A stretch of 64,000 bases of DNA, from NCBI RefSeq assembly GCF_032118995.1, contig NC_092649.1, positions 29,278,927-29,342,926 of the forward strand. The letters are read 5' to 3'. Origin of the DNA: Asterias amurensis. Taxonomy: Eukaryota; Echinodermata; Asteroidea; Forcipulatida; Asteriidae. The notes below the pieces were generated by a model that did not search any database, was not told the DNA's origin, and saw only the letters and a list, made by a program, of their open reading frames with translations. This document shows positions 1 through 30,448 of this stretch, in pieces. Position 1 is the first letter of the stretch. The number at the start of each line of letters is the position of its first letter. The translations under genes and the position numbers were made by a program.

Positions 1-692
1 TAAATTCCAAGTGGCTGTTGATGAGGCATGACCGAATTAGAGAGAGTTTTATTTGAGATTGGAACCACAGTATTTGGTATTGGTGGAAACGTTGTGGCAG
101 GAGATTGTCCCTCCCCCCCCCCCCCCATACCCAGAGTTGTGTATAAATTACTTCTGATAGCGCCCTCTTTCGAATCAACCTCATTCAGCCTGTGAGTTTC
201 CCATTGGGACCGAATCTTCATAAAACACCGTCATTTTGTGCTATTAATTGCTGAAGTTGCACCCTCTCAAAGCAATAATGCACTAAGCCCCAGTCGACTC
301 ATACAAAAAAATATCCTACCAACCAAGGAGGTAGAAATCTACCTCCATGTACCAACCAAGTGAATACTGAATACCTAGCACTGTAATTAATATGCAATCA
401 AGAAGGCACCTATCTGAAAAGGAAGATGATAAAGAGATCTCAGTTTCAAACATGGGAGGAAAACCCCAACTGGGGGAAGACACACACAACCAAGTAGAGG
501 GACTGAAAACCTCATCCAAATACAAGGCTCCCTCTGGGGTTTGAGCCAGGAGTCCACAGAGGAAGGCAATGTAGCATATACCACCAAAAGCCAATTCTGA
601 ATATATTTATAACCATACAGCATGACAAATTCGACCAATCAGTCATAACAATGAAAATCTGTCTTTTTATTCCTTGAATACCTCAACAACAG

Positions 693-3287
693 AGCGTCAT
701 CCAAGAGTATGTTGACAACATGTTCCAGACCATTCTCTCCGTGGAGAGCGCCCCCAAGGCAATCAAGTTCCTCTTTGACTTCTTTGATGACCAGGCAGAC
801 ATGTATGACTTGAAGTCCAAAGACCCCGAAATTAAATGCGCCTGGAAGAATAACATGTGAGTAAAGAATGGCAGAGTGGAAGAGGGAGGCCCCATGTTCC
901 CATATTTTAAGACATTCTTTCCCTCTTGTACAGAAGTATCCCCTACCCCCAAACAAACAAAAGTCTTCTACAGAATTCCTGAGATTCCCAGAACACAAAG
1001 AAGACACAATAGGAAAGGGAGTACACCTTGTTACATATCAAGCACCAAGTGCCCCCAATTCATTGTTAAAATGACCCCTACATAAGATTCAGCTCACATT
1101 ATTAACAAACTCAAGAGTATAAAACCTCAAAGTTTCACCAAAATACTAAACAGCATTGTAGAAACTAAACCATAGACATTGATCAACCTCATTTTTTATA
1201 AATATTCACATCACTATTCACAAGTTCATGTCAAGTATTAAAGATACAAGTTCCAACTATCTTGAAATGAGACGAACTGGGGCTTGCATGCCTCCCTCAT
1301 AATCCATTGCAGTTTGTGAAAGATGCTTAAGACTAAACACCACTTTCTGCTTGGATACATAATTTTGCTTAGCTGTAAGCTTTATAACACTTATAGTCTA
1401 AGATGTTTTTATAAATTATTTCAAACAGTTTGCCTCTGCGTTTCTGGTCCAACGCCATCAAGCATCCAGACTACATCTTTGACATCCAACCTACTCCATC
1501 CGTTGAGGCAAGCATGGATGTGATTGGTCAGTTATTCCATGATGCACACGACACCAAGACTGATAAACTTGGACAGGTAAAGAGAAACTGACGACAGAAA
1601 GGGTGGTTGTCTTAAAGGGTGGCTGTCTTAAAGGGTGGCTGTCTTAAATCACAGAAAAGCCAGATTGCATTCCCTTAGTGTCTGGTATAATACACTTGAG
1701 ACAATTTTCATCAGTGCCATTCTGCAAGATACAGACTGTGTATTCAATGCTGTAAAATTATTATTATTATATATTTCTGGTAATGAAACTAAAGAATTCT
1801 CATGAGTGAACTTAAAATCACTCTAGCTTGCAAGCCTGAGGAGCCAAACACAATTTCTAACAGAGGAAGATTTTGCATTGATTGGATAACAATGGGGGAG
1901 CGGGTAGGGAAGCCCTATGAGTTCAACACCCAACAAAGTAAAACAATAAACAAAGTAATAAAACAAGATCAAACCACTTGAATGTTCTCCTTCAACCACT
2001 TTAGATCTTACTTCCAAGTTTCTGGACTTACTTATACCTTTGTGGTTTACTTTTGATCTGAATTGTTAACATTGACAGGAATCTTCCATCAACAAGTTCC
2101 TGTACAGCAGAGAGAAAACCAAGTACCAGCGTCTTGTCCGACAGTACTATAAAGGTGTGGAGGAGTCTACACCGGTAACCACACAAGACCTCAACACTGA
2201 ACTACAAAAAGCAAGTCAGGTAAAAGGACATTTCACAATCCAAATTTTTTCAAAAACAATTATCAAAAATTCAAGTTAAATTCTCAAAACGTATTCAATT
2301 TGGTTAAATTATAAGATTCCTTCACACAGCACCATTAAATCCTTTTATTCCAAAGTCAAAACTTGAATACAATACTTATTTAGTTATATTTGGATTCACA
2401 CTCGATGAATTTAATTGTATTTGTTTTCTCTGTAGAATTTCACAGGATTGTTCAGCAAGCTTAGCACCTTAATGCAACTATGGGATCTTGTAAGTTGACT
2501 GATTTTTATTTGGGAGAAAAAATTATATCATAAAACATACAATTGATACACAAGTTATATTAAAGGGGAGTTGTTCATCCACAAAAACACCTACTCTGTT
2601 CTGTAATTATTAGTTATGTTAAAAAATATAAATTTACCTCTTAAAATACAACCAGTCGAACATTTGATCTGCAATTTCGTGGAGTAAAAAAAACACACAC
2701 AAAACCCCACAGTTTCAACGAGTATTAATGTGAATAATTATTGTCTTCTTTTACAACCACATTTATTTCAAAACAAACCCTTTTTGTACAGCCAGAAGTG
2801 CCCAATCAGAACGCAATGTGTCCCTCGAATGTTTTTAGGTACATCATGCTCTAGCCTAAGTAAGTTTGATGGTGGACACATCATTAGTTAGATACTTCTG
2901 TATACACCCGAGCCAAACAGTGCACTCCTATACAGTGTCTACCACGCCTCAAAAATAGTTACAGGAACACCCTAAACATAAAATCCCATCAGGTCTATTC
3001 CCTCTTCAGTCTCCTGATAAAGACTAGAGCACCTTCTAGTTGAAATGTCTGGAATAAACCAACAGTTTCAGAGGCACTACTTCTTCATAGAATGGATTAA
3101 TGCATGGCATGACCCCCAGAAATTAATAAACATCTCAATCATGAAAATTATTAACTTCTCTTTCTCTCTTTCAATCTGAAAACAGCTTCTTGTGGTGTTG
3201 AAGACAAAAGATCAAAGTGATCAGAAGCATCTTGGATGCTTGCTGCAGGAGGTGAAAGAAACACTCTCCAGAGGCAATGCTTTGTAA
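693..3287 (+). CDS. Upstream plexin paralog, last five coding exons (C-terminal GAP segment)
   Basis: Exons 693-856, 1429-1576, 2079-2219, 2436-2489 and 3186-3287 (TAA stop) join in frame and encode the second half of the plexin intracellular Ras/Rap-GAP domain plus the C-terminal tail. Diagnostic stretches are [25 protein letters not shown] and [19 protein letters not shown], which match the corresponding region of animal plexins; the LPLRFW arginine belongs to the GAP active-site region. Junctions have ag acceptors and gt donors (gtgagt, gtaaag, gtaaaa, gtaagt). The 5' part of the gene lies before the window. Compared with the second plexin's final exons I find only synonymous changes (two in the last exon), so the products should be identical here. 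The two genes are in direct tandem. Confidence 0.92.
1603..1652. repeat. 17-bp tandem repeat, three units
   Basis: Unit AAGGGTGGCTGTCTTAA lies in the intron after the second visible exon. The right copy of the segmental duplication (33863-33932) has four units, so the array has changed length since duplication. Confidence 0.85.
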
Positions 3288-4996
3288 AATTTTCCTGATG
3301 TTTAATACTGGTTTTCCAGGTCAACTTCTGCCGTTCAAATTCACACCTCAAGTTCGATCAATCAAGGTTCATTTAAGCTACTATTGCATTCAGTTTCGTT
3401 TTGGTGAACTCATTATTTTGTTCTGCTCATTCAGATTCATTTCAGTCATTGCTATTCATTTGTTGGCATTAAACACTACATGTTCGCTATTCAGGTGATT
3501 GTCCACCACCCATAAACACTTGATGTAATTAAATGGTTGACAAGCCTCTTGCTGCTGGCTCTTATGAAGTTGAATGAAATGTTTGATATAATGAAGTTGA
3601 ATGATCTTATACTTGAATAGTGAATACTTAACTGTTGAAGTTGAATGACTGTTGAATGCTTAAAATGTGAATTTTCAAATGATTAGTATTTGAATGAGCT
3701 GTGTGTTAAATAACCAAGGGTTCTTTGTTGACATTGGCCAGGAAAACATACAAGAAAGTAAGAGATAATCATTAAATGAGATGAGACTTGAATAATGTAA
3801 TGTGTAAGAAATGTTGCTTCCCTTAGCCAGGTTTCTGTTTTGATTTGCCTGAGACAAAAATATACAAATGTCTGTGCATAGACTTAAAATAATATTACAA
3901 AAAATGAGGAATGAAAATAATAATGTCTGTCTGATCAGTTTTGAGGTTTATGTATTTTTCATGGTAACATTTTATTATTTTTATTCTTCTATTTTATTAG
4001 CTGAAATGTTTTTCAAAGTAATAGGTTTTCCAGCACATTTTGGACAAAATACTTCACATTAGTTTCTAACAGTGTAGAGTTTGTTGTGGGTTTTTTAGGC
4101 AGTAAATCATGAACATTAATGGAAACTCCCAGTCAGAACCATACCCAATCAGGCTAAAAGATATTTAAATAATGGAATTTTGTACTAAATTTTTACATCA
4201 TTTTGACCCAGTTTGCGGTGATTTTTACACAGATTCTTGGACATGTTCACCCAGAAATTGGTCAATAAATTAATAGTGGTTTCTAATTTTGTTACCACTT
4301 ATAGTAAACAATGAAAATGTGATTTTTTTTTTGCAAGACTGTGACGGTTAATTTGTATTTTTGAGGAAATATTTAACTTGTATACCATTTCAGTTTGTCT
4401 ATTAATATTTGTTTAAATGACAGTTCATAAATGCACGATTGTACAATACTCAGATAAATGTATGTTATTAAAGACATTTAATTATCATGTTCAAGATGTT
4501 TATAAGTTGAAAGCTGTCATGCTACGTTGAAAATATGACATAAAGTATGAGGAAGTGAGACTTCAGGTGAAGTTTAAACACTCTTGTCCACAACATCACA
4601 AGCTGGAACATTGCCCTCACTGAAGTAAGTTGAAGCCATTCATTGGCTAAGAGTTTTACCCCAGGATGAATGCAGGTTCTATTCCATGAATGTTATACTT
4701 ATAGGGTCAATTTTGAGGAAGAATATTTAATTTAAGCCAATAGTTAAAACTTTTTCTTTGTACAATTGTTTATTATTTTGAATATTTTAAAAGTGTGTTA
4801 TCAATTTAGCTTATTTTTTTAACAATTAAGAATTGTAAGCAGTGCCATAAAATTGATCAACTTAATAAACAATAAAATATACAGAAGAGAATAATGCAGC
4901 TATGATCTATTATTATTTATCTTGCCAAGTTTTCAACTAAAAGGACTATGCAACAATACATTTGTTCTGTTTAAAATGAGGATATGGAGCAATAGC

Positions 4997-5233
4997 TTAA
5001 AGGAACACGTTGGCTTGGATCGGTCGAGTTGGTCTTTGAAAAGCATTTGTGACCGTTTGTTATAAAATGCATATGGTTAGAAAGATGTTTTAAAAGTAGA
5101 ATACAATGATCCACACACATTTGCCTCAAAATTGCGTGGTTTTCCTTTTATTGACTCCCATAAATGGCCGACCGTGTTTGTGGACGCTTTTCAAAGACCA
5201 ACTCGACCGATCCAAGGCAAGGTGTTCCTTTAA
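4997..5233. mobile_element. TTAA-bounded foldback element (MITE family 2)
   Basis: The ends are inverted repeats of about 45 bp: TTAAAGGAACACGTTG... at the left and ...GTGTTCCTTTAA at the right, with TTGGATCGGTCGAGTTGG in one arm and its complement in the other. There is no coding capacity. The orthologous insertion is at 37273-37540, so it predates the segmental duplication. TTAA at both ends suggests a piggyBac-like target preference (inference). Confidence 0.85.
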
Positions 5234-5296
5234 AGGAATATAAAACTTTCAACTATTGGAATCAGATGACAAGACAACCTCATTTTAAAATGGTCA

Positions 5297-5410
5297 GGGG
5301 TCGATTTCACAAAGATAGTCCTCACTTAGGACTATAGGCCTTGTCCTAGGAGTTATTAAAAATTTAGGGCTGGTCCTAAGTTAGGAGGAGCAACTTGGGA
5401 TAAAACTAGT
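5297..5410. repeat. Hairpin repeat with 'GTCGATTTCACAAAG' end (family 3)
   Basis: Contains inverted copies of TAGTCCT...AGGACTA and CCTAAGTTAGGA. Related copies occur at 37606-37740, 51075-51232 and 58799-58966. The usual terminal GTGAAA arm is partly deleted here compared with the right-hand duplicate. Confidence 0.65.
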
Positions 5411-6184
5411 CTGAAACCAAAGTGGACCAAACCACTGTGGTTCAAAAGGCTATTATTCTAATCTTAAAATAAATTTAAAACAAAATCTGAATTATTGCTT
5501 TATAACATTGGGCGGGGAGGATAGTGCTTATTGTCAGGTGGCCAAAGCATTTCGGCTGTGATTGTTGATTCCAACTGAGCCTGTTTGAGATTGCTGGTCA
5601 AGTTCTATTTTAGAGGGACTTGTCGTGGTTAATATTGCCTCCCTGTGCTTCGTCTTTCTATAAAATGATCCGGCTTCCTCTCACTTTCACCAAACTTACA
5701 GCAGATTGGTTTGAGTAATGGTGTTTACTGAAAGACACAGGACTCTCTTTACCAAACCAACGAGTTTGAGGTCTTTTTCGAGAAAAACAAACCAAACAAA
5801 CCAAACGAACCAAACAAACTAGACTTGGGGGTCTAGGGCTCCATTCGACTGTTTGAAGCCTCATGAAGGAAATAGTACTTGCTCTACCTAATGGAAACCA
5901 CGGCAAATCCGAAAGCCAAAGCTATGTCAAAAGGGTCCGCATATAGTAATGTGCACTCAAATCTAAATAACTCAAAATAATTTTTAGCATAAAAACATAC
6001 TTGGTACAACAATGAAGAGCTAATGTTGATTGTGTATTTTAAGAAACAGCTCCCTTCAATATGCAATGATGTGTGACAAAAGCCTGCCCTCACTCCTGAC
6101 CCTTTCTTCCACTGAGTTGGGTGCATGGTGAACAACATAGGGCTTACTCGCCGGTGTGTATCAAAAGGCTGTAAACAATTGATG

Positions 6185-6560
6185 TTTTTTTTTTTGCGAC
6201 GTTATTTCCTTCTCGATAGTCGTTATTTCCACTGCTTGTGCTATAGTTATTTATGGCTGTCTAAAATCGCTCATTTTGTTGCCACCATCTTCAATAGTGT
6301 TGTTTTGTGGCTTCTGCAGAAAGCCCGCCCACCACTATTCTGATTCTGACTCAAATAAGTCTGGAATCGCGGGAGCCATACATCGTCCCAATCAAAACGA
6401 GTTTTATCACTTTTTAGTTTCCTGCAGACGTTTTGTGAATGTTGGAGGGCCTTCTCAAATTAAAAGCAACAAAACTACTCGTTCTGAAAAAGTAAGAGAT
6501 CTTTATCCAGCCACGTGTTTGTCATCCTGTGCCTGAAGCATTGTACGTCAGTAAAAGACA
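6185..6560 (+). promoter_or_regulatory. Putative promoter block of plexin first exon 1a
   Basis: This block resembles the regions upstream of exons 1b and 1c. It contains GCCCGCCCA (6323-6331, GC/Sp-KLF-type box), TGACTCA (6347-6353, the AP-1 consensus) 264 bp before the ATG, followed by CTGGAATCGCGG and then a GAGATCTTT..CCAGCC block nearer the start codon. No clear TATA box was found. Promoter function is inferred from conservation between the three units. Confidence 0.55.
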
Positions 6561-6610
6561 GAAGAAGAGAAGTCAACAACTTATTTCTATTGAGTTCGTC
6601 AATTGACACT

Positions 6611-7777
6611 ATGGAGGCCCAGAGGATCCATGTAATCATCTTGTTGGCTGTATGTTTGATCCTGCTGGGATTATTAAGTAGTGTTGTATCAGCTGAATGG
6701 CAAGGAGATCTGTCATCTTATCACATTGCTTCATTCAGTAATCCTCATCCTCCTAGACCTCTCAATGATCCATCTGGTAACCACAATGCTAAATTCAATC
6801 ATTTCACTCTATCTGGCCCTGATGGAGCTGTGTATGTTGGAGCTGTCAACTACTTATACAGACTGGATAGTTCATTGAATCTGCTACAGAATGTTAGTAC
6901 ATGTCAAGAATTAGGAGAGGATAAATGTGATATATTCACCAACTACAATAAAATCCTGATATTAGATAATCAGAATCGGTTGATTACATGTGGAAGTGAG
7001 AATGGAGGAAAGTGTCAGTTCAGGAATCCAGATGATTTGACTGATGTGTTGTTTCACCCAGGGCCTAATGTTGCTGGTTTTGGAGAGTTGTCTACTGTGA
7101 GTTTGATTGCACCAGGAACTGATGGACCAATGGGAGATGGTCCAGATGGAGGAGACTGGTTGTATGTAGCTGTGGCTTATTCTGCTGAGGTTGGCTATAT
7201 AAGAATTCCACCAGTCAGCAGAAGAATCCTTAGTACAGACGGGTTGTTGATATCTCCATCAGGCACAGGGTTTTCTTCATTTACTGCATTTGATACTTCC
7301 AATCTTAAGACTCCAATCCATATTACATATGTAACTGGTTTCTCATACGATGGGTTCACTTACTTTGTCACTTCTCAACAAGATGTTCTCGGTTCCAATG
7401 TCTTTGTTTCTAAAATGAACAGAGTCTGTCAGACCAGTCCAACATTTGACTCTTACACAGAAATCACCCTACAATGCCAAGGATCAGATGGTAGTGTGTA
7501 CAGTTTGGTACAAGCTGCTCATATTGGCCCGGCAGGTCAGGATCTTGCTGTATCATTAGGTTTGAATGCTGAGGACACGGTGTTGTATGCTGTGTTTGCT
7601 AAGAATGAAGGAGCTGATGGGACTAGTGATGTACCTATTGATCAGTCAGCATTGTGTGTGTATAAGATGAGTGATATTTTAGATGCCTTCAAGGAAGCAG
7701 TAAGGGGATGTATTCAAGATGGAGATGACTACTCAGTGCAGTACTTGCAAGGATCCTTCTGTCCATCCTTCCTGATG
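6611..7777 (+). CDS. Plexin alternative first exon 1a (signal peptide + sema)
   Basis: 389 codons ending in phase 0 at donor ATG|GTGAGT (7778). The start MEAQR is preferred over an in-frame ATG at 6515 because all three copies share it and it directly precedes a hydrophobic signal sequence ending VSA|EWQGD. Sema hallmarks include [16 protein letters not shown], the cysteine-rich stretch around residues 95-140, NRVCQTSP and [10 protein letters not shown]. Reading through the donor would add 22 residues before a stop at 7844-7846, so intronic polyadenylation could give a secreted sema fragment (speculative). No internal stop or frameshift. Confidence 0.9.
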
Positions 7778-10700
7778 GTGAGTTTTCGTTTGCTGGTTCA
7801 GTTTAAACCCACATATATGTATGCAATGCAATGTGTATGTTTATGATCATTAATAATAATATAGATGCCATCAGGGATGATCATTTTTTTCAACTTGAAA
7901 ACCGATACTTTAAGTCATGTTTAAATTTTGTTGTCAGTGATAAACATTTAGTTTTGGTACAGGTATTTAGCTGTAAAGACAAGCATTACAGTCCTTTGAT
8001 TGAATAATAGACGATTGTCTAATGAACGGGCCTGGTCGCCCCCATACCCTCCACACGCATGTGCACAAAGATGACGGAGTTTGCAAATTGCGTGACCCCT
8101 TAGATTAGTCTTGAAGTCAAGACGGTAATTGTTAAGCGCGGTGTGTAGTTACAGCGGTGTAGCTACGGGGACGATACACACACCCTTGATCCCAGTATGT
8201 GTATGTGAGCAGAGCTGCCTCGCGCTACCTACGACTGTTGCATGTGTAACATCGCACTGTGACTGTTGCATGAAAGGCAGACAAATAGGCAGCGCCTAAC
8301 GACTTGTCATCAAGTCTACCCCTCGATATGCAATGTGCCAAAATGTAGTTGTCAAAAGTTTGTTCAAATAAAATATATAATTATTGTTGTCGCAATAAAA
8401 ACGAACATTATGCCTGCTCTCATGCCTGACCTTTGCTTCCAGTTGGGTGAACAACAAAGGGCCTACCTGTCATTGTGTGCATAGACTGTTTCTATTCCTT
8501 TCGTTAATTTGTCTTTAAGGCCTACTAAGCATGGTACGCTATTTCCGTCTCGTATCTTTTCTCGACTGCCGAGTATTCTGGCTCTCTTTCGCTGAAGTTT
8601 TTAGGCCGCCATCATCAACAAAGTGTTGTTTACGGTTATTGCAGGAAGCCCGCCCATCACGAATTCTAATTATGACTCAAATAACTCTGGAATCGCGGAA
8701 ACAACATTATCCCACCAAAAGCCAGTTTAATCACTTTAGTTTCTGGCAGACATTTCGTGAATGTTATGCTTTTATTTGTGCTTGTTTTGTATAATTTAAA
8801 GTTAACAAAGCTACTGCAAAGGAGTTCTGAAAAAGTTTGAGAGATCTTTCCCCAGCCTTGCGTTAGTCACCATGTGCCTGAAACTTTGTACGTAGCCTTG
8901 GAAGAAACAAAAGAGAACAAGTAACTTATGTTACACTATGGAGGCCCAGAGGAGCCACGTAACCATCTTGTTGGTTGTATGTTTGATCCTGCTGGCATTA
9001 TTAAGTAGTGTTGTATCAGCTGAATGGCAAGGAGATCTGTCATCTTATCACATTGCTTCATTCAGTAATCCTCATCCTCCTAGACCTCTCAATGATCCAT
9101 CTGGTAACCACAATGCTAAATTCAATCATTTCACTCTATCTGGCCCTGATGGAGCTGTGTATGTTGGAGCTGTCAACTACTTATACAGACTGGATAGTTC
9201 ATTGAATCTGCTACAGAATGTTAGTACATGTCAAGAACTAGGAGAGGATAGATGTGATACATTCACCAACTACAATAAAATCCTGATATTAGATAATCAG
9301 AATCGGTTGATTTCATGTGGAAGTGAGAATGGAGGAAAGTGTCAGTTCAGAAATCCAGATGATTTGACTGATGTGTTGTTTAAACCAGGGCCTAATGTTG
9401 CTGGTTTTGGAGAGTTGTCTACGGTGAGTTTGATTGCACCAGGAACTGATGGACCAATGGGACCAGGGCCAGATGGAGGAGACTGGTTATATGTAGCTGT
9501 GACGTATACGTATAAAGATGTGTACACAATTATCCCACCAGTCAGCAGAAGAATCCTTATTAGTGCAGGCAGTTTGTTGATATCCCCAGCAGGCACAGGG
9601 TATTCTTCATATACTGCATTTGATGTTTCCAATCTTAAGACTCCAATCCCTATTGCCTATGTAACTTGTTTCTCATATGATGGATTCATATACTTCATCA
9701 CTTCTCAGAAGGAGGATTTTGGTTCGAACGTCTTTGTTTCTAAAATGAACAGAGTCTGTCAGACCAGTCCATACTTTGACTCTTACACAGAAATCACCCT
9801 ACAATGCCAAGGATCAGATGGCAGTGTGTACAGTTTGGTACAAGCTGCTCATATTGGCCCAGCAGGTCAGGATCTTGCTATATCATTAGGTTTGAATGCT
9901 GAGGACATGGTGTTGTATGCTGTGTTTGCTAAGAATGAAGGAGCTGATGGGACTAGTGATGTACCTTTTGATCAGACAGCATTGTGTATGTATAAGATGA
10001 GTGATATTTTAGATGCCTTCAAGGAAGCAGTCAGGGGATGTATTCAAGATGGAGATGACTACTCAGTGCAGTACTTGGAAGGATCCATCTGTCCATCATT
10101 ACCAGTGAGTATGAGTATGGTCAACTTCACTCAGTTTAAATGCAATTTATGTGTATGTTTATGTTAATGAATATTAGTATAGATACCATCAGGGGTGATA
10201 ATGTTTTCAACTTAAAAACCAACACATTCAGTCTTTTTTAAATAATGTATGGGACAAGTTTATAAAGATGTTGTTCTAATGCTTTTATTTAGCGTCAGTC
10301 TGGAAAGAGGTTGTAAAATAATCATATTAACATTTTGTTTAAACTTAATCATTTACCCGTAGAGCAACAACGTTTATACTTTTCAATGCATGTTTTTGTC
10401 TCTTCAATGACATTCTTTTTTGGGGAAGTTGATGCGATCAAAAAGAAGTATACCACCCTCTCGTGTAAAGCATGTGCTTATGGCAAACGAAATCAAATCT
10501 AAATTGATCTCTGACCATGGAGGAAAAATAGATATGCTCTGACCGTCAAATAATATTATTGCATGCATGCATATTGCTACGTTTTTAGGAAAAAAACGCA
10601 TGAAGCACATGTCCATTTGGTTGTCAGTGATAAACATTGATTTATTGGTACATGTGTCGTAACTGTTAAGACGAGCATTACATTTTGTTTGAAATGGACT

Positions 10701-13700
10701 CTGATTGTCTAATCAACGGGCACCGTCACTACCTACATGTACATGCCACCATGGAGGAATTGCACGCCAAAAAGATCACGGTGTTTGCAAATTGCGTGAC
10801 CCCTCGATATGCAATGTGCCAAAATGAAGGAGTCAAAATTTTGTTCAAATAAAACATTGTTGTGTCAAAAAGTGAACATTATGCCTGCTCCCATGCATGA
10901 CCTTTTCTTCCAGTTGGGTGAACAACAAATGGCCTACGAAGCCACTTGGTAAAAAGGCTGTATTTGTTAAAGTTCTTTTATGCCAGAGTATTTCCGTCTC
11001 GTATGGTTGTCGAGTATTCTGGCTCTCTTCGCTAAAGTATTTAGGCCGTCACCTTCACCAGAGTGTTGTTTTACTGTTACTGCAGGAAGCCCGCCCATCT
11101 GACTCAAATGACTCTGGAATCGCGGAACCAACATTATCCCAACCAAAGAAAGGGTAACATCTCTTAAGTTTCTTGCAGACACTTTCGTGAATGTTCTGCT
11201 TTCGCTTTTGTGTGTTTAAGGAGAGCCTCATACTATATTTAAAGTAACAAAGCTACTGCAAAAGTGTTCTAAAAAAGTTTGAGAGATCTTTCTCCAGCCT
11301 TGCATTCGTCATCCTGTTCCTGAAGCTTTGTACAGCTTCAGAAGAAACGGAAGAAAAAAGTTACTTCTGTTACACTATGGAGGCCCAGAGGAGCCACGTA
11401 ACCATCTTGGTTGTATGTTTGATCCTGCTGGGATTATTAAGTAGTATTGTATCAGCTGAATGGCAAGGAGATCTGTCATCTTATCAAATTGCTTCATTCA
11501 GTAATCCTCATCCTCCTAGACCTCTCAATGATCCATCTGGCAACCACAATGCTAAATTCAATCATTTCTTTCTATCTGGCCCTGATGGAGCTGTGTATGT
11601 TGGAGCTGTCAACTACTTATACAGACTGGATAGTTCATTGAATCTGCTACAAAATGTTAGTACATGTCAAGAACTAGGAGAGGATAGATGTGATATATTC
11701 ACCAACTACAATAAAATCCTGATATTAGATAATCAGAATCGGTTGATTACATGTGGAAGTGAGAATGGAGGAAAGTGTCAGTTCAGGAATCCAGATGACT
11801 TGACTGATGTGTTGTTTCAACCAGAGCCTAATGTTGCTGGTTTTGGAGAGTTGTTTACTGTAAGTTTGATTGCACCAGGAACTGATGGACCAAATGGCGC
11901 AGGGCCAGATGGAGGTGACTGGTTGTATGTAGCTGTGGCTTATTCTGCTGAGGTTGGCTATATAAGAATTCCACCAGTCAGCAGAAGACTCCTTAGTACA
12001 GACGGGTTGTTGATATCTCCATCAGGCACAGAGTCTTCGTCATTTACTGCATTTGATACTTCCAATCTTTATACTCCAATCCGTATTGCATATGTAACTG
12101 GTTTCTCATATGATGGATTCACATACTTCATCACTTCTCAAGAGGAGGATTTTGATTCCAACGTCTTTGTTTCTAAAATGAACAGAGTCTGTCAGACCAG
12201 TCCAACATTTGACTCTTACACAGAAATCACCCTACAATGCCAAGGATCAGATGGTAGTGTGTACAGTTTGGTACAAGTTGCTCATATTGGCCCAGCAGGT
12301 CAGGATCTTGCTGTATCATTAGGTTTGAATGCTGAGGACATGGTGTTGTTTGCTGTGTTTGCTAAGAATGAAGGAGCTGATCGGACTAGTGATGTACCTA
12401 TTGATCAGTCAGCATTGTGTATGTATAAGATGAGTGATATTTTAGATGCCTTCATTGAAACAGTCAGGGGATGTATTCAAGATGGAGATGACCATTCAGT
12501 GAAGTACTTGCAAGGATCCAAATGTACTACATTACCAGTAAGTGTATGGTTCGCTACATTACAGGTGTATCCCAGGTTATTTTGCTAACATAAGATACCT
12601 TCAGGGAAGCCAAGGGAGGTTTTTCTTTAAAAGGCATTGTATAAAAAGAGATTTAAAAATGTTAAAGGCAGTGGACACTATTGGTAATTGTCAAAGACTA
12701 GCCTTCACAGTTGGTGAATCTCAACATATGCATAAAATAACAAACCTGTGAAAATTTGAACTCAATCTGTCATCGAATTTGCAAGATAATAATGAAAGAA
12801 AAAAACACCCTTGTCACACGAATTTGTGTGCGTTTAGATGGTTGATTTCGAGACCTCAAGTTCTAAACCTGAGGTCTCGAAATCAAATTCGTGGAAAATT
12901 ACTTCTTTCTCGAAAACTATGGCACTTCAGAGGGAGCCGTTTCTCACAATGTTTTATACCATCAACCTTTCCCCATTACTCGTCACCAAGAAAGGTTTTA
13001 TGCTAATAATTAGTGTCTAACCAATAGTGTCTACTGCCTTAAAGCTACACATGTTTTAGGACTTTATTCAAATCAAACTGTTTTCTTTGGTTTTGGTCTA
13101 TTTTATCATTCTTTCTACAAATACAGGAAAACAGAATCACAATATTACTGATATTCATTGTTTTCTATATGATAAAGCAATTATGTTTGTAAAATTTATT
13201 GCTACCACTTGTATGCTCCCTCTCATTGAAACTGTTCTCTGGTAAAAGAAAAAAGAATTAAAAAACAACCTAACATTTTGTTGTTTTTTATGTTCAAGTA
13301 AAACAACTCTGTCGATTGTAATGGTTTGCTGTGTTGCACACAAATTAAAAAGATTTTTTCCCCACAATGTTTTTCCGCTCTCTTTGAAATCACTGGACTG
13401 GATGTCACATTCATAACTAACTATTTTTATTGTGTTGTTAAATTACCCACCTGGTGCTTGTATGTAAAACCAAGTTGAAGTTGTGGATTGAGGCTAAAAT
13501 ATTTATCTTATTTTATTGTCTAGATTGGTCCAGATATGTTTTTGTGTCATCCTTTTGAAGCGGACACTACAATATACAGGAATGCTAAAGGCATCAGTGT
13601 AACGGCATCCAATGCTGTACTGGAACTATCAGGTACATCAAATGAGACATCCAATTTTCTGTTCTTCTATTTCTAGGTCAGTCCAGATATGTTTCTGTGT

Positions 13701-16700
13701 CATCCTTTTGAAGGTAGCAACGAAGTTTACAAGTATGCTAAAGGAATTTATGTAACTTCATCAAATGCTGCACTGGAACTTTCAGGTATTAAAAAGATAC
13801 TGCATTACCTAAACAATCAAAATGTTCTGGTTTCAATTTAAAAGGGCAGTTAAACATCAACTCTCATCTCAATCAAATTTTTAACAGTCTTAAATGCTTG
13901 TTTTATTTTGACTGCTCACTTTCCTCTGTGCAATTGTATTTGATTGTAGTCTTCTTGATAAAAATTGTCAGTAAGTAAATTTTTAAAATATTTAAAGGCA
14001 GTGGACACTATTGGTAATTACCCAAACTAGCATAAAAACTAGCATAAAACCTTACTTGATAACGAGAGGCTGAGAGTATAAAACGGCTTCCTCGGAAGTA
14101 ACGTAGTTTTTGAGAAAGAAGTAACTTTCCACGAATTTGATTTCAAGACCTCAGAATTAGATTTTGAGGTCTTGAAATCAAGCATCTGAAAGCACACAAC
14201 TTCGTGTGACAAGGGTGTTTTTTCTCTCATAGTTATTTCGCAACTCAAATGACCAATTGAGTTCAATTTATCACAGGCTTGTTATTTTATGCATATGTTG
14301 AGATACACCAAGTGAGAAGACTGTTCTTTGACAATTACCAATAGTGTCCAGTGTCTTTAAAGTGTTGCCCCCTGTGTTGTTTGCAAGTTAAATGTTTTTG
14401 TGATAGTTTTAACTTGTTCTCTTTTTTACAGGACCATAAAGCTGTTGAGCTGATATTAAGTATCCTTTAAAAATATGGTTTTTTAAAATAAATTAATGTA
14501 CATTTTTTTAATATTGTCATTTCAAGACACTCTGATGTCCTCCATCATTACAACTACTGAGATGAACCACACTGTAGCTATCATTGGAACTTACTACAGT
14601 GGGGAACTTTTAAAGGTAAGTATATTAATTTTGTTAATGTATATTTCTTTCATTTGTTTCTTGGATCAATAAGAGGATGCTTCCATCTTGGCTTTTGTGC
14701 AATTGGCAGCTTCCAGACCAAATCAAATCAACGAAACTGAAATTTTTATCATCCATCACCTTTAGAAGTAATTCATTATTCTTTCCTTGAAAGGATACTT
14801 AGGCGGGTAAATACATTTAACGCAATTCCAAATATACATAGAAAGTAACACAAACAAATCAAAACTTGGGTTGGTTAAAAATATGAAACTTTAAAGCACT
14901 GCTAATTATTGACTGTTGTGGGTCTCAAGACCGGTCTCCCCCTCGGACCTTCAGGTCTTGGTCTCGGATTTCGACTACAACACTGAACGTCTAACCACTC
15001 CTTATTTACAAGTGTTTGACCATAAATTATTATTGAAAATCAACCTGCTTACAACCACAAAAGGAATATATTAAAAAAATTACACAAAAACATACACACG
15101 CAGCAATGTTTCTGTCTTCTGTTACACAAAAACATTGATTATATATGGAGCAAAAAAGGGAGGAGCAGAAAACAAGCAAAAGATGAAAGCATTGAACAAA
15201 GGAAAGTCAAATTCAAAAGGACAAAGGAAGGGTGGGGACCAAGGACCTTGCAAGTGTCAAACACAAACTTTACAATGATGACCTGTAACTTTGGTATAAC
15301 AAATGACAGCACAAATCCATGATTCAAAATTAAACATTATCCCAGGTTAACTATTCATATATTGTTGTGTTACAGGTTCACATCCAGAGCAAGACCACAG
15401 CCAGACTGTATGAAAGAGTAGACCTTGATATTACTGGATCAGTTCTTAAAGATGTCAAGATTAATGATGCAACAAGAGAGATGTACATACTCACTGAACA
15501 AAAGGTACAATATATAAAGATGGAAGGACCATGCAAATGTTATTTTTTAATTTACCCCAAGCATATAATTTGACTTCATCTTTTTAAATATGTTTTGATT
15601 TGGACTGTATAGTTTCTGAAGATGCGTGTTGAGAATTGTGGTCAGTATACAACGTGTGAGACGTGTATTGGTACGGATGCAGAGATGGATGGAGACCCAT
15701 ACTGTGGCTGGTGTACTCTGCAAAGACAGTAAGTATTGTATCTTGATTGGTTAACAATGCATGTTGAGAGTTATTACATATGCAGGGAGGGATGGAAACG
15801 TCAGCTGAATTAACAAATTTGGATCGCCTAAAAAATAACTCTGTATGTGTTTTGTTAATACCTGTTTAGGTGCACCCTGTATTCTGAATGCAAGATGCCT
15901 GATGTGTCTACCCGCTGGTTAGCCTATAATACTGCTCAGTGTATTGAGATAACCAATGTGGATCCTTATAACAATCTACCAATCACTGTCACTGAACAAC
16001 AGGTAAGAGTAACTGGTTACTGACTTTGCGCATTTCCATATAGCTGGTTGGCACACAAAATTGTTTAACAAAGGAAGTATTGCTTAGCAGAAGTGGACAT
16101 CCCAAAACGCTATTAAGATTACATTAGTGTGACTCGGTGGCTTTATGTTCTGAATATCCCCTTTGCCCTTCCCTTTTTCCCCCTCTCCAATCCACCTGTA
16201 TCTGTGCCACTAGCTTACTAACTACCAATTGTATTATTACCTAGATTACTGTGAGTGTGGAGCAGTTACCAGACTTACTGACCAACATGACATATGAGTG
16301 TTGGTTTGGATCCTACGTATCTCAAGCTACAAAGACTAATGAGGATCTTAGATGTGTCTCCCCACCTGGTAATAGGATACCACCAATTCAACAAGGAGGT
16401 AAGTCAAACACTAAACTAGGGCCATTTGTTGCTATTGTTGTTAAAATAAAATAAACATACAACTTTTTATGAATGTTCCATTTTCCAGATGATGCTGTTC
16501 AGGTTACACTGAGCATCCATTCCAGTGAAACATCAGTCAGTTTTGTGGATACAAGTTTCTACTTCTATGAATGCTCCACTCATACTTCGTAAGAATATTT
16601 TATGTTCGCTCTAGCTTTAACTTTGATACTTCAGAAGAATATTGTCTGTTCGCTCTAGCTTTTCATATGACACTCCATTTATGGTACGCAAAATGTCTTC

Positions 16701-19700
16701 ATTGACTTTGGTAATGATAAAGTTTATTGAGTTCCAAATTACTGAGTTCCAAATTCTTTGATGTGGTTCAAATTGTTGATACTTTGTCCATACCTCTCTA
16801 ATCCATAAACCCAATCATCAGCTTAAATTATTTTGTTGTTTTGTATTTGTGTTTGCTATAGTTGTGTATCTTGCGTTGGTAGTCGATGGGCCTGTGATTG
16901 GTGTGTCTTTGAGAATAGATGCACTCATGTTAGTTCTACTTGCTCAGGAGACAATGAAATCATCATTACAGGACAAAACGTAAGATCAAACTCTATCACA
17001 AATGTAGTCTTTTCCAAATACTGATATCTAACAGTTAAACAAACTGAAGATCAAGGTGTTGTAAATAAAGACATGAAACCATACATGAAATATGTTTTCA
17101 ATAACATATATGAGGTGTTATTGAGTTGTTCTGAAACATTTGAAGATCAATGAAAAAATGTATGTTATTCAATGATTTGATATTTTTTCTTTAGAATCCA
17201 GCTTTGTCTTCACCCAAGGGTCCGGGTTCCTGCCCTCAGCTGCTGGCTCAGAATACTGAAGTCCTTCTTCCCAATGGAATTGAAAGAAGTTTACAAGTCA
17301 TGACTACAAACCTACCTGATCAGACCAAGGTTAGTTAATATCTTTATTGGTCAACCAGCGTTCAAAGGCAAAATGAGTTAAATTAAATAAAGGCAAAAAG
17401 TGATTTTAGCACTTCGAAAGTAGCAGCAATTTTAGGGTAAGAAACAGTACAAATGCTGGTCTGAGACAAAAAAAAGGTTATGGGAAAAAAAGAATTGCAG
17501 AAAAAAAAGACCACATGAAAAAAGAACATTTGAAGAGTGTTTTATCAATAGTTTCCTTAATTATGTTGTTTTTATTGATTCTTTTAAAATTCCCCAGAAC
17601 AAAATACCAAACTACCTGTCACACTGTCTCTCTTTCTGAAAATTACAAAATGGTCTGCCATTAAACACAAATTATGCTGCAGAAAGTATATTAGGCTGCC
17701 TGTTCAAACAGAATTGGTTTGACTCCTTTGAAGATCAAAACAAACAGCACAAACCTTGTTAAACTGAGATTGTTTAAACGCCTTCTAATAACTAACATTT
17801 TTCTATTCATCTCTTAGATTACTAGCTTTGAATGTAGCTTTGATATAGAGGGAATACGTCAGAGTACAACTGCACAACGTAATGATGATACCATCATGTG
17901 TGACATGAAAGCTGTAAGTATCTATTCATTTTCTTGAAGTTGTTAACCAACTTTGTATTTAAAAAGAAAGCCAAGATTTGAGTTGAACTTTGTTTGATAT
18001 CAACCCATTTTAACTCCACAGTATACCTACACTTCCACTGATCAAGCAGAGCTGATTGTGAAACTGACTATTGAATGGACAGACACCAGTAATAACCCTC
18101 ACATTCTAGATGACTTATTCAGCAATAATGGTGAGTTTGAGTCAAGGATGTGGGGTGGGGATACAGGCACTTCCATACACAAAAGAGTCTAACTTATAGA
18201 ATTTTACCCTAAGTAAGCCGTGGTCAAGTGGTTAGACTGCAGGACTTGCAATCACAAGGTTGTGGGTTCGAACCCCCCAGCTAACCGCTGATTTCACAAT
18301 GACTAGAATAATTATTGTCGTCTAGTTAATGAATCACAATTTCTTGATTTGTGTAATTCATAATCATAGACGTTAAACCAATGTTTGTGAGAGAGAAATT
18401 GGCTGTTGCCAGCTTGGTGTTTATATCCCTTGTGGGAGTTTGCCTTGATGGGAAGATCATTCAAACAAACAAACAAACAAAGACCCTACCATACAGTAGC
18501 TAGGATCCCATAAGGGGTTTGTGCTGACTGAGTTCTCTCTGGACTGTAATGGTTTTGTTTAGTACAAAAAAAATTGAGCCATCTAGCATTACAATATAAA
18601 AAACCTAACAATCGTAAGATAAGTTGATTTTGATCATCAGATGCCTACCAACCCAACCTGTTCCCTCCAGCATTCTAATCGGAGACAAAGGTAACCTTTC
18701 TAAAGCATCTTTCTTTTTATGATTTATAAATAAGACATGCAAAGAAAGATTTTAAACTTGTATTTTTTGCTACAGCAACACTTTACAAGTGTGGAGCATT
18801 GAAGCCAGATTGTAGTCGGTGTGTTACTGCCAGGCCAGAGCTGGAGTGTGTTTGGTGTAATGCTATGTGTGAACTAAGAGAGTCTTGTACAACAGCGGAA
18901 GGAGAGTGGGTTACCCACAATAATAACGCCAGCTGCCCTGATCCAATCCTCCAAGGGGTGAGTAGATTTATAAGTTTCTGATTACAAATATGGAGTAACT
19001 GGCGATGTCAACTGACATGACCCTATCATCCAAGAAGCAAGTAGATACCAAGTACATTGATTATTGACAACTAGGTGAGGGTCTGTACTATTTTGTTAAC
19101 GACACTGTGAGATTGTTAGTGTATTAGTTAAAGAAGGAAACACCTGCAATGAATGTGGAGGAATGTGACCCATACCCGAAACATGTTTCTGTAACTGCAA
19201 GTGACTTGTTGACTTAATTTTGTTTTGATTGTTTAGGTGTATCCATTGAGTGGACCAATAGAAGGTAACACCATAGTATCTGTAATGGGTACAGATATTG
19301 GCAGAGGGTTCCATACTGTACTGAATGTGATGATTGGAGCGGATCAAGAATGCCATCTGGATGGACTGGAAGCCTATTATGAAATAGGCCACAGGTAAGA
19401 AGTTTTACAAAACCATCTTAGATGGACTAGAGGCTTACTTTGTACTCAGTTGGAGGTAAGTGTTTGATCACACTGTTGAACAGCTGAGTTTGTGTAATCT
19501 GTTTGTTTGTTTATTGGTTTATAGGGGTGTAGATGTTTGTTTGTTTGTTGTTTGTTTGTTTGTTTGTTTGTTTGTGTGTTTGTTTGTTTGTTTGTTTGTT
19601 TGTTTGTTTTTTAGAGAGGGGTGTCTTCACAGCCACAGCTTAGCCATTTTATTTTACCAATGTGATCACTTTGTTCTTAAAAAGTTCATATATTTATTAT

Positions 19701-22700
19701 TGTGGATTAGCGGGATTTGAAACCTCACATTGTCCTTTTTGTTCGGCTCGAGCTGCACCAGCATTGTAAACAAAATAATTATGGTATAACAAACAAAAGA
19801 TATTTCTAACAAGATGTTATAAAGATTCTTCAGTTATGTAAAAAAGAAATATAATCTTACCTTATTCCACAGTGTAAGTTGCCTAACTCAGTCAAGAGTT
19901 GAAAGTGTTGTGCAGATATCTCTGACAGTCAGGGGAGGTGATGGGACAACACTACAGGAAAGCAAAGGAAATGTCAACTTTCAATATAGGGTAAGTTTGA
20001 TTACAACTCTGATGGGGTCTGAGTGTCTGTAAAACTTGGAACTGTTGAAAATAAATCAACATTAAATTTTGAAATAAAAGTCCATTCCACATGGGATCTA
20101 TTTTCTATTTTCTAGTCCAGATTGCATTTCAATCAATCGCTCAAGATTATTTGAAGACAAGATACAAAAAATAATTGTTTCTTTTCCAACGAGATCAAGA
20201 TAACAATTGATTGCTGACAACTAGAAGGACACATGATCTGCTTGATGTTTAGTGTCTACTTTATTTGTTTTTCTGATTCTGATTTTCCTGCCAGGTTCCA
20301 TCTATTACAAGTTTCAGTCCTCGTTTTGGACCAGCAGCTGGTGGGACTCTTATAACAATCAATGGAATGGCTCTAAATACAGGACGGAATATTCAGGCAT
20401 TCATTGGTGATAAAGCTTGCATTATAACAAGGCAAGTAAAGACATAACAATTAAGTCATTGAGGTAGAGCCTGTTAATCAGAGATTTGTTTTGATTAGTC
20501 TTTTAAATTGAGGTCTGATCAGAATCACACCATTAGTCAGTTGGTTAAGAAAAGTCTTTTATAGTGATGTGTCATTGGTTGTATATCTTTGATTTACTTC
20601 ACAGCCCAGTGACAGAAACTGAAGCAGTGTGCACAAGCTCTGAGGGGTCTGTTGGGCAGACAGAAGTTCTCAAGATGTCTTTTGATGGAGCAGATAAAAC
20701 AAGCGAGGTGTACACTTTCAGCGACAACCCTGTCATTACTGAAGTCAGTCCAACCACCAGTATATATTCGTGAGTACATCTACAAACAATAGTTGTTAAT
20801 GACACTATATTTTTCTGTTGAAATTTCTCAATTGACCACAATCTTCAATTTGTGTCTTATAAGGCTGCAGTTTCACAAGTAAGTTGAAGCTAAATGGGTC
20901 AACAAATTGGAAATCTCATTGAAAGCGCTTAAAAATTTAAATGTAAAAATAACCGCATTATTTCCTGATCAGACTAGCTTAGCTACTTTTATCCTGCGTT
21001 TTTTTACTCTTTGATTTTATTGTCAATACTCAGTGGTGGTCGGGAGATGGTTGTCAGAGGGACTCATCTAGACACTGCCCAGATGGCTTCACTTGTTGTT
21101 ACAATTGCTTCTCAAATCACTAAGAGATCTGTCCGCAGTGAGGGACCCAACGATATTGAGTTTGTGGAGGTGAGTCAACATAAAAATTATACTATAACAT
21201 TTTCCCATCTTACATCATGACAATTTCAAAGATTAAATGTTAATCACAACAGGACTTTTAACAAATAATTGTTTTACAAATTTAGTTTTTCAAGAGTTGT
21301 GCTGTGGAAGGCTCAGAGTTTATGCGTTGCAAGACGCCGAATATAACATCAGCCATAAGCAGCTCTTTATCTCAACTTAACGTGACATTTGGCTTCATTA
21401 TGGACGGTGTGAGTGACCTCTTAACGTGGTCAGAAGACAACGACGTTGACTTGGAGTTCTTTCCTGATCCAGAGTATGACGAATTTGAAAACGGCTTGTT
21501 TGAGAAGAAGGGAGAGTTGATGACGATAATGGTGAGGTTTTATCAATTTAAAGCTGTACGATTCGGGTGTCAATGTCTGAGTCTGTACCGACTCTCTGTT
21601 TCTGTGTAGACTTGATTCAAGTCCCGTTCTCGTGCAAGAGGTCCCTAAGTATATCCGCTGTTAAAATGTAGCTATTGTGGTTGTCCCGAAAATGGGACTT
21701 GACAGGGACGTTTCTTACTTCTGCACGTCGTTATCGAAAAAATCACCCCGAATGGGGAGGAGTACAAAACCAAAAGGAGCTTGGAAGCCCTGCCCCATCG
21801 GTAAAATAGTCATTATACTCTGTGACATCACGGTGCAAGACACTTAAGTGCATGCGTCTAAACGCGGCGACATATGGGGGCGGGCAAACTCAGCGGCAGG
21901 CAAGGGGGTGTTGGTACAATTTATATGACAAGATGGAAAATTTGTTGAAAATCAAGGTAAAGTAATGCTCACTGATTCTAAAACTGGAAAGTATAGTTTC
22001 CTTATACCTAGTGGTTTAAGATCTACAAAATAACTTTAAACTGCGTTGCTGTCATATTGTTAAGGGTTTCATATTTGTTTGTTTTTCTTCCAAATTTGTA
22101 CAATGTGTTTATGATTTAAGTTTACAGCCAAAAGAGTTGTGTGTTTTTTCCAACGAAGACCGGTTCCCCCAGCCATTTCAATTATCAGTGCAAGGATTTC
22201 TTTGGTTTTCTTTTTTTTGTCATGTAAATGAATCCCTTGCCATTTTTATTGTTGTCTTGAAAAAATAGTGTTCTATCTTCATTTATTGATATACTCTTTA
22301 TTTGAAGGGTAAGCTTATCAACAATGCAATCACTGAATCAGAAATCATCATTTATGTTGGACCAGTGAGAAGTGACGTAACCTTCATTGAAGAAACAGCC
22401 CTTGGTTGTATTTTACCCAAGGAGCAACCACCTGCTGGGGACTTCACCGGCCAAGACAAAGAGAGAGGTCTTCCTGTGGTCTGGGTAAGTCTTAAGAGAA
22501 ACCTCTGTTGCCATAAAGAAACAACCATCTGAACTAGAATTCATGAGCCAAGACAAAGAGAGAGCGCTCCAGAAGAAACCTCTTTATTGCTATTTATTCA
22601 TGAAACAACCATCTGCCTAGAACTTCAAGGGTCAAAAAAAATAAAGAGGGCTTCTTGTAGTCTGGGTAAGTCTTAAAATAAATCTCAGTTGTGATCTACC

Positions 22701-25700
22701 AAATAAGAAACAACCATCTGACAATTAGTTCTTGCATTAAGACACATAGACAGGGCTTTCTTAAGTCTGGGCAAGTCATAACACAAATCATAGTTTTAAG
22801 TTCACTTTGTAGAATGGAAGAACCATGACAGAGCGCTTCCTGCGGTCTTGTAAGACAAAATTTCCTTGGAACTCACTTAAGAAACAACCTCCTCATAAAA
22901 TGGCTTTATGAAGTAAGAAAAAGGGGTGAGATGACCCAATTCTCAGTGGTACTTATTTTGTATGATTCTTAAAGTACTCAAATTTTCTTCTTTTCAGGTG
23001 GTACACAGCAACCTTGAGTTCCGCATTGGTTACATATCATATCCTTCAGCCAATGCAACTATTGCTGTTCTAGCGGTTATCGGGGCATTGATTTTCATTA
23101 TCTTAGTCTGCACGGTGATATACCTGACGATACGGCTGAAGAGAGCCAGGCGAGATGCTGATCTTCTGGTCTTAAAGAAAGACCTTCTTGAAGATGTTAA
23201 GAAAGGTCAGAATTAGAGGTCACAGAATTTACTTTATTGATTATATGACCAGGGGACAATTCTTCAGTTGAAGCTGATATTATGCAGAAAATTTGTTCTC
23301 AGCTAGGTTTCTCTGCTAAAAAGCATAAACAAGTTGTAAATCAGTGACAAACATCAGCCCAAAAGCCGTTAAGCAGTTTTCCCTGCTAAGCAAAATGAGC
23401 AATAAAAACAAAGATTGGGGCACCAGTTGCCGTAATGTAAAGTTTATGAAATGTTGGCTGGCTACCTGTTTCTATACTGAGCAGTTTTTTGTTCCAAGTA
23501 AGTTACAGTTCCAAAGCGGCTGTGCCTCACAGGGCAAATGAAGCTTTTGATAAAGATTGACCTAAGATAATCACAGTTTATCACATCCACATTGAACAAG
23601 ATCATACTTTAATATCAATTTGAAAAACAGGACTCTCCCAGAGAAAATTTGACATTCTCCGATTGACGAGTGACGTTGAAGAGAGTGGGATGCCATTTGT
23701 GAGTCACCGTGACTACGCTACTAACATGCTGTTCATTGGACTAGAGGTTCAACCAACCACAACAGATGAAGAGGTAACAGTGATCAACACAAGAGACTGC
23801 AAGATCCTCTGAATCAGAGTTGTCATTAAGTCCAGTGGAATTTTGAGTATATCTCAAGTCTAGACTCCCAAGGGTTTGGTTTCTAGCAGGGCCCAATTTC
23901 ACAGAGCTGCTTAAGCACACTGCTAACAAAATCCCTGCTTATGCGTTGATGAGCAGGAAACCAGGCACAAATTGTATGCGATTTTGGCTGGTAACCTTGT
24001 TCTGGTAAGCATAATTTAGTTTTGCTCAGCCTATTTTTGTGCTAAAGTAGCTCTATAAAAATGGGCCCTGTTTCTAGAGTCCTTAATAAAAGTGAATCTG
24101 AAGTCAGGTTGCCAGACCACGTGACTTATTTATAAACTCTTTCTCAAGAACCACAGTTGTCAACAAACCATCACATGCTTAATTTAACTTTTGCTGCAAA
24201 TCTTTATCCTGACCAGTAATTCTACTCAGTAAGTAAGTTCTTTGAATTCCTGTTTCGAAAATCATTAAAAGTTGTGACACCAAACACCAAGGGCCAATTT
24301 CACAAAAAAGCTTTGTGTCTGAGAATCTTATTTTAAAATTACTCAGGACAGTGTAATGATACTATTCAATTCACACCTAGAGGTAGTGTTTTGTGAAATT
24401 GAATGCAAGGACACAACAAAAGGGACTCAACACCAAATCCAAAGTATTTACTATATAACCCCTTCCAAAGAAACAGTTCAGTTACAGCAAAATTAAAACA
24501 GCAAACCAACCTCACCAAAAAATCATTTATTTTACATTCTGTGCATAGTACGCTGAATATGCTATGGTTGAAGAAGCTATGATGATGTTCTCTGAGTTGC
24601 TAGGCAACAAGAACTTCTTATTAATTTTCATCCAGACCCTAGATACAAGGAGCCGCTCAAAGATTTCAGTCAAAGAAAGGTGAGAAGTTTGAGACAAGAT
24701 TTTCTGTCTGATTCCCCCTCCCCAAAGAATGAGGTTGTTTAACACTTTATATTTAAAATTTCTTTCTCTTGCTGGATATTCATAGCATAGTACATGTAAT
24801 TACTTTCTCAAGGTTTATTTTTGTCAATTAAAAAATTCTGTACATATTTTTTGAAATTTATGCTAGGATTAAGATCAGTGATGTTATATTATATATACGT
24901 CCATTGTTTTGTGAAAAAGTAGAATGTATATACAACATTTTTGTTTACATCCTGATAGGAACAACCAGGTTGGACACACTGGTGGCTCATTTACCAATGT
25001 ACAACATTACTACAATTGGTTTTGTTTTTGCACAATTCCATATTTCTAGACAATCGATAGCATCTTTACTGACTGTTACCATGGTACTGAATGACACCCT
25101 GGATATCCTAACAGAGTAAGTCAAACTCTAGGGACTATGACGATTGCCTATATTTTAAGTTGCTTCAGACTACAAAGAGCAAACTTGGAGAAGGTAATTT
25201 GGAATACATATCAGATGGAACAGACAATGGCAAACTAAAGACATATAGCAAGAAAACTCAAGACTGGGATAAAAGGTCACAAGTATTTAAAACAGAATTT
25301 TCTTGATTTTTTTATTTTGTACTGAAAGAAAAGCCATCAAGTGAGGCTTGCAGAGACACAAATGATTTTCTTAATGAGCTGTGTTGGTTCTCTGAAGAAC
25401 CACTGGTTAACAGTGAGACGTTTCAACAAGTATTCTTCGACTGTCCTTATCAGGAGAAAACTGGACTCTATTGCTGAGTGATGCTTAAAATCTGCTCAAG
25501 AGGTTCAGCTTGCAAGAAGGCTTCAAGCTAAACCTCTTCGGCAGCACACAGCAACATAGTCCAGCGTCCTCTTAAAGACAATCAGAGTACCTTTGTGGAA
25601 ATGTTGAGTTGTTTACCACTGGTTCATAGTCTATAGCGAGAATTATTGGCATAGTGTCACCGCAATTATCTCTTAATATTTCCACCATGCGAAGTTTCAA

Positions 25701-30387: not shown

Positions 30388-30448
<61 letters not shown>

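Follow-up and report, generated by a model that had tools for sequence, protein, structure and literature searches.

Clustered protocadherins alpha and gamma carry tandem large first exons, each with its own promoter, that precede a shared 3' body, and chelicerate sDscam genes carry tandem 5' cassettes with their own promoters ahead of a constant part, occur as clustered gene copies and show intron retention (PMC4835542). Drosophila Gr39a has several large exons, each with its own start and donor, which are mutually exclusive because no acceptor precedes the one at the small exons that all forms share (PMC2204066). Here we describe a 64-kb stretch of the genome of the sea star Asterias amurensis (contig NC_092649.1, positions 29,278,927 to 29,342,926; the whole stretch is referred to as the window) in which one plexin gene probably has three variable first exons, an exclusive pair of second exons and a shared body, an arrangement in which the semaphorin-binding face of the receptor would be swapped. 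Plexins are conserved axon- and cell-guidance receptors, and their specificity is normally set by separate genes.

The locus is like the clustered protocadherins in having tandem large first exons before a shared body, but differs from them in having three copies, a plexin sema domain, an extra exclusive exon pair and promoters that are putative. It is like sDscam in having tandem 5' units before a constant part and in that the gene copies are also clustered; sDscam, however, encodes Ig domains in cassettes of two or four exons, with at least 40 copies in one gene, and its transcripts and promoter activity have been demonstrated (PMC4835542), whereas the promoters of the starfish plexin are predicted from sequence. 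Unlike the starfish plexin, Gr39a is a chemoreceptor with no sema domain and a small shared part (PMC2204066), and UGT1 and GCNT2 have tandem multiple variable first exons as here but encode enzymes (PMC1885805). An earlier note on this DNA had likened the layout to clustered protocadherins and knew of none in plexins; UGT1, sDscam and Gr39a can be added to the known cases, and in the open-licence literature we found no report of variable first exons in a plexin. The same receptor family is represented in Acanthaster planci by an expansion of Plexin-B and of plexin-ectodomain kinases, Met-LP (PMC6374515); the accessible main text of that paper contains neither "first exon" nor "alternative", and two A. 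amurensis genome papers (PMC10625585, PMC11090083) do not mention plexin. A plexin locus built like those of protocadherins or sDscam, its variation directed at the semaphorin-binding face, would, if confirmed, add another independent route by which a single locus generates diverse receptors.

Structure of the gene and its proposed alternative exons

A search of a protein database clustered at 90% identity with a spliced model of the locus found P0001, an A. amurensis protein named "plexin-A4-like isoform X2". Of its 2039 residues, 2037 match the window exactly, in 41 blocks that follow one another in order from 6611 to 35564; a TAA comes next. The first junction of P0001 joins exon 1a (389 of 389 residues) to exon 2a (36 of 36 residues) and continues into the shared body; because 1a is joined directly to 2a, exons 1b and 1c lie inside the first intron of this model. 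This junction is the strongest evidence for alternative first exons, and it comes from a database model. Alternative isoforms in this type of annotation normally rest on transcripts; P0001 itself is a database model. Pfam finds sema, PSI, TIG, RhoGTPase-binding and RasGAP domains in P0001, and the shared body has the PSI/TIG, transmembrane (by eye), RhoGTPase-binding and RasGAP parts of a plexin behind a plexin-type N-terminal sema domain. The anatomy, the exon phases and this one annotated 1a-2a-body model are direct observations (Table 1). The start of exon 3 (14527) was taken from the phase-consistent exon chain.

The three first exons are tandem homologous exons lying 5' of the shared exons, each with a start, an intact frame and a compatible donor. 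All begin with ATGGAGGCCCAGAGG and are free of stops over 1167, 1167 and 1161 nt (1a, 1b and 1c; 389, 389 and 387 codons), their phase-0 donors all have the form GTRAGT, and the chain from 1c through 2b into most of the body is phase-consistent. A hydrophobic, signal-like N-terminal segment was seen by eye in each. The Pfam Sema profile scores 31.3, 26.2 and 28.1 bits for 1a, 1b and 1c, all above the cut-off of 23.7, and among solved plexin sema domains the best match to exon 1a is 6fkm, Plexin A (E=6.4e-41, residues 59-372); by alignment with mouse plexin-A2 (3al8), exon 1 encodes about three quarters of the domain, counted from its N terminus. The encoded proteins are 87-90% identical. The open frames exceed chance expectation: when as many differences as each pair shows were scattered at random over one copy, no stop arose in 49, 31 and 82 of 2000 trials. 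No further exon-1 copy was found within the window by tblastn with 1a. These results bear out what the earlier note had said of starts, ends, codon counts, open frames and donors, of a sema domain present for the most part in each exon, and of 1c as the only copy adjoining exon 2; its signal peptides agree with the hydrophobic segments.

Exons 2a and 2b are identical at 84 of 109 nt and are separated by 44 nt. They are mutually exclusive because joining both shifts the frame and because 44 nt is short for an intron, and so form a pair of tandem homologous exons that cannot be included together in frame. Exon 2a is used in P0001, and no model with 2b was among the matches listed. Three first exons and two second exons therefore give six possible sema domains; one of the six joins, 1a-2a, is documented by an annotated model.

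We propose that transcription would start at 1a, 1b or 1c from the upstream region of that exon, most likely a promoter, and that the transcript would use the donor of its own first exon. The next acceptor would be 2a or 2b, because 1b and 1c start at their own ATG with no obvious acceptor by eye (60 nt before each ATG, unscored). One of 2a and 2b would be chosen, never both, and the shared body would supply the rest of the receptor; 1b, 1c and 2b would presumably be joined to it as 1a and 2a are. Exon choice would thereby swap the semaphorin-binding face with the signalling end unchanged, and could alter ligand specificity.

Table 1. Features of the plexin locus, in window coordinates.
Feature	Position	Strand	Basis
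3' end of preceding tandem plexin gene copy	1..6055	+	96.5% identical to 32267-38364
Presumed promoter/5' untranslated region (5'UTR) of 1a, with homologues before 1b and 1c	6082..6610	+	conserved TGACTCAAAT, TCTGGAATCGCGG; putative function
Exon 1a: start codon, signal-like N terminus, about the first 3/4 of sema; donor ATG/GTGAGT, phase 0	6611..7777	+	P0001 residues 1-389
Hypervariable patch, residues 186-262 of 1a; 1b and 1c have corresponding patches	7166..7396	+	alignment, entropy
Presumed promoter/5'UTR of 1b	8412..8937	+	conserved blocks; putative function
Exon 1b: parts as 1a; donor CCA/GTGAGT, phase 0	8938..10104	+	read-through open reading frame (ORF) 8938-10167 = P0058
Presumed promoter/5'UTR of 1c	10868..11376	+	conserved blocks; putative function
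Exon 1c: parts as 1a, adjoins exon 2; donor CCA/GTAAGT, phase 0	11377..12537	+	exon chain
Exon 2a, 109 nt, entered in phase 0 and left in phase 1	13524..13632	+	joined to 1a in P0001
Exon 2b, 109 nt, entered in phase 0 and left in phase 1, alternative to 2a	13677..13785	+	similarity to 2a; splice sites
Shared plexin body: rest of sema, PSI/TIG, transmembrane, RhoGTPase-binding, RasGAP	14527..35564	+	P0001 exact blocks; Pfam

The upstream regions have blocks at about -250 to -380 that are common to all three copies, including TCTGGAATCGCGG and TGACTCAAAT, and these conserved blocks fit a putative promoter before each first exon. Within TGACTCAAAT lies TGACTCA, which we take to be an AP-1-like motif; TGACTCA or TGAGTCA occurs nine times in the whole window, so its presence alone means little. 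Near -500 the upstream copies are only 29-50% identical (60-column slide).

The last plexin exons of a preceding gene copy lie at the left end of the window. This 6-kb segment, the 96.5%-identical 3' end of a preceding plexin gene, makes the gene described here part of a tandem array. On its right side (5970-6055) the first 6-kb copy runs into a dispersed element also found near 45.2 and 62.6 kb.

Variation near the presumed semaphorin-binding face

Differences between the copies cluster in two places, residues ~186-262 and the boundary between exons 1 and 2, with near identity elsewhere. The paralogs P0002-P0005 vary from P0001 in the same places: the exon-1 blocks are 94-96% and the remaining ectodomain 90-93% identical, residues 186-262 are 57-78% identical, and the tail of exon 1 together with exon 2 is 55-71% identical. 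Cytoplasmic identity to P0001 is 53-54% for P0002-P0004 and 98% for P0005.

To relate these sites to known contacts, mouse plexin-A2 (3al8) was aligned by HMMER, and a single one of 35 numbering offsets gives D at 193, F at 221 and A at 396. Plexin-A2 positions 193 and 221 align with residues 195 and 221 of 1a, and A396 sits opposite a single-residue gap behind residue 388, beside the exon 1/2 junction at 389/390 (read from the alignment). D193 and F221 are taken here as presumed semaphorin-contact mutants of plexin-A2. Neither of the two occurs in PMC8155012, and 12 of 25 passages on blades and binding site in PMC10206189 give no such residues. Plexin-A2 A396E causes an essentially complete loss of Sema6A binding (PMC4308982), and A396 is given as a plexin-A2 contact also in PMC4938514.

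Within 10 residues of the three contact positions the mean entropy is 0.936 vs 0.374 overall in an Asterias set of 13 sequences, and 1.252 vs 0.595 overall in a set of 24 Patiria miniata proteins; random triplets of positions match the observed entropy in 45 of 5000 trials (Asterias) and 191 of 5000 (Patiria). The Asterias set comprises exons 1a, 1b and 1c, four paralogs and two more short proteins from A. amurensis, three proteins from A. rubens and P0061, and leaves out the distant paralogs P0033, P0034, P0037 and P0085, P0046, which has no exon 1, and P0058, which equals 1b; read-through tails were masked. For the Patiria set, 25 proteins were listed from a single 46.65-Mb sequence, and all 24 apart from P0081, which is partial, were used. 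Site entropies of the two arrays correlate (Spearman 0.447, 421 sites), a value to which general fold constraint contributes.

Several of the Patiria proteins, among them P0006-P0015, all from one sequence, combine a plexin-type ectodomain with a tyrosine kinase domain. Against the Asterias query region these kinases show ~52% identity, and they vary at the same sites. They correspond to the Met-LP of PMC6374515.

Divergence of the three copies

Coding identity between the copies is 92.8-94.0%, and the 1, 1 and 2 indels per pair are all multiples of three, which agrees with the intact frames that the earlier note had reported. The upstream flanks are 60-81% and the downstream 120 nt 41-68% identical, with 20-47 indels per kb; Jukes-Cantor (JC) distances are 0.21-0.57 for the upstream flanks and 0.42-1.15 for the short downstream flank. 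By the Nei-Gojobori method, synonymous distances (dS) over the whole of exon 1 are 0.095-0.131 and nonsynonymous distances (dN) 0.053-0.068. Outside the patches (codons 1-185 and 263-373) dS is 0.063-0.067 for all three pairs, and in the variable patch plus tail dS is 0.19-0.37 and dN 0.12-0.18. Because synonymous sites in the conserved blocks are far more alike than the neighbouring non-coding DNA, these distances point to gene conversion outside the variable patches, which would keep the conserved blocks alike; codon constraint is the alternative.

Which copy stands out differs from one part of the exon to the next: at nt 501-700, 29 sites single out 1b, 8 single out 1c and 3 single out 1a, and at nt 701-800 the numbers are 12 for 1a, 5 for 1b and 2 for 1c. 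The upstream flanks of 1b and 1c resemble each other more than either resembles that of 1a. Within the patch dN/dS did not exceed 1 (0.44, 0.59 and 0.66 for codons 186-262; 0.46-0.61 for the whole exon); the sole value above 1, 1.11 for 1b vs 1c at codons 263-373, comes from ~3 synonymous and 11 other changes. Since both dS and dN are high in the patch, escape from homogenisation together with weaker constraint fits better than an argument from dN/dS.

First-exon proteins in the database

A search with exon 1b found P0058, a protein of 409 residues identical to the ORF that continues across the 1b donor until a stop is reached; it runs 20 residues past the donor and is unspliced. The search with 1c and 2b listed no close match to 1c, the best being 85% identical (7995 top word-sharing candidates scored). 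Other short exon-1 models are P0062 and P0063 (A. amurensis), P0059, P0060 and P0064 (A. rubens), P0067 and P0068 (Patiria miniata) and P0061. In seven of the nine short relatives (P0058-P0064, P0067, P0068) the residues just past the exon end are V-S, as a retained GTRAGT donor would read; the exceptions are P0060 (M-A) and P0062 (V-M). Left out of this count were P0065, P0066, P0070 and P0073, which run into exon 2, P0072, P0081 and P0087, which are incomplete or fall short of the exon end, and P0069, P0075 and P0085, which end otherwise, together with other unnamed rows. Orphan first exons with a retained donor therefore recur in sea-star plexin loci or in their annotation.

Two of the models differ at the 5' end in other ways. 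P0064 lacks about residues 58-150, joined in frame, which may be an annotation artefact or a splice variant. P0046, an A. amurensis plexin named isoform X2, begins in exon 3 and lacks exons 1 and 2, and its start is another alternative 5' end in the same family.

Alternative explanations

The earlier note had held that 1a and 1b make sense only as alternative promoters splicing into a shared body. For 1a the splicing stands, as P0001 skips 1b and 1c, whereas 1b appears only as the unspliced P0058; the word "only" was too strong in view of the short single-exon-like models in A. amurensis, A. rubens and Patiria. Exon 1c needs no skipping to reach exon 2, and no model with 1c was among the matches listed. 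Because short single-exon-like models exist, stand-alone short products and a conversion reservoir have to be weighed as alternatives. Several observations count against a single gene with variable first exons. No model joining 1b, 1c or 2b to the body was among the matches listed, 1b is seen only as a stand-alone read-through ORF, and AATAAA behind 1a (8367, 8394) and behind 1b (10848) makes short polyadenylated transcripts possible. As to the binding face, circular shifts give weaker support than random triplets (26 of 409 match the observed entropy for Asterias and 30 of 409 for Patiria), and two of the three contact residues in the entropy test are presumed. Isoforms that differ only in exons 1 and 2 could be hidden in the P0001 cluster, which has 3 members, because of the 90% clustering.

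We consider it unlikely that 1b, and perhaps 1a, are stand-alone single-exon genes encoding a soluble truncated sema protein that ends a few codons past the donor, although such proteins could be semaphorin decoys and may coexist with the variable-first-exon gene that we favour. P0058 as the read-through ORF of 1b, the similar short named proteins P0062, P0063, P0059, P0060, P0067 and P0068, the lack of a donor-like V-S in P0060 and P0062, and the AATAAA motifs behind 1a and 1b speak for this explanation, but V-S kept in seven of nine such proteins is unexpected if the donor is useless, the product would lack about a quarter of the propeller, and 1a is spliced to 2a in P0001. Single-exon models can, moreover, arise by automatic annotation or by intron retention, which occurs behind the cassettes of chelicerate sDscam (PMC4835542). 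That 1a or 1b are silent copies, serving only as donors of gene conversion into an expressed first exon, is improbable: the starts, frames and donors of all three are intact, diverged patches included, and 1a has a spliced model, even though the low dS of the conserved blocks beside the higher values of patch plus tail and of the upstream flanks, and the switch of distinguishing sites from 1b to 1a along the exon despite the closeness of 1b and 1c in the flank, would suit such donors. Conversion itself is a tentative reading of the sequence. An assembly artefact, with the copies as unpurged haplotypes or a mis-join, is very improbable. The window does contain the 6-kb segment twice, and a published A. 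amurensis assembly needed purge_dups (PMC10625585), but the exon flanks differ by 19-59% with many indels, far above the heterozygosity of 0.96% published for an A. amurensis sample (PMC11090083), and haplotype duplication was rejected on these grounds. HiFi libraries of ~15 kb, as reported for one A. amurensis assembly (PMC10625585), could span the 6-kb cluster. P0001 is no independent check here, because it may rest on the same assembly.

A possible recognition repertoire

More tentatively, and more probably wrong than right, the sea-star plexin arrays may be a recognition repertoire in which the sema framework is kept uniform by conversion, the binding loops are kept diverse, and the diversity is read out by gene copies and, within one gene, by the choice among three first exons and two exclusive second exons. 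If so, cells would have different receptor faces on the same signalling body, perhaps for recognition by immune cells or of cell identity. A role in immune cells is open to direct study, because coelomocyte proteomics of A. rubens found a semaphorin-1A and a plexin-A4, the latter possibly a member of the array (PMC13409769).

Other features of the window

Behind the exon at 22308-22484 lie two partial copies of it (22421-22795) with in-frame stops by eye. Two similar small cytoplasmic exons, 29834-29947 and 30489-30605, are both used in P0001, and P0005 has three such units. Near-perfect inverted repeats at 28020-28232 and 29548-29695, with arms of 88 and 71 nt that are 99% complementary, are perhaps small mobile elements inside introns. 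At 49105-49662 an ORF with a SAM domain forms part of a downstream gene, perhaps GAREM-like.

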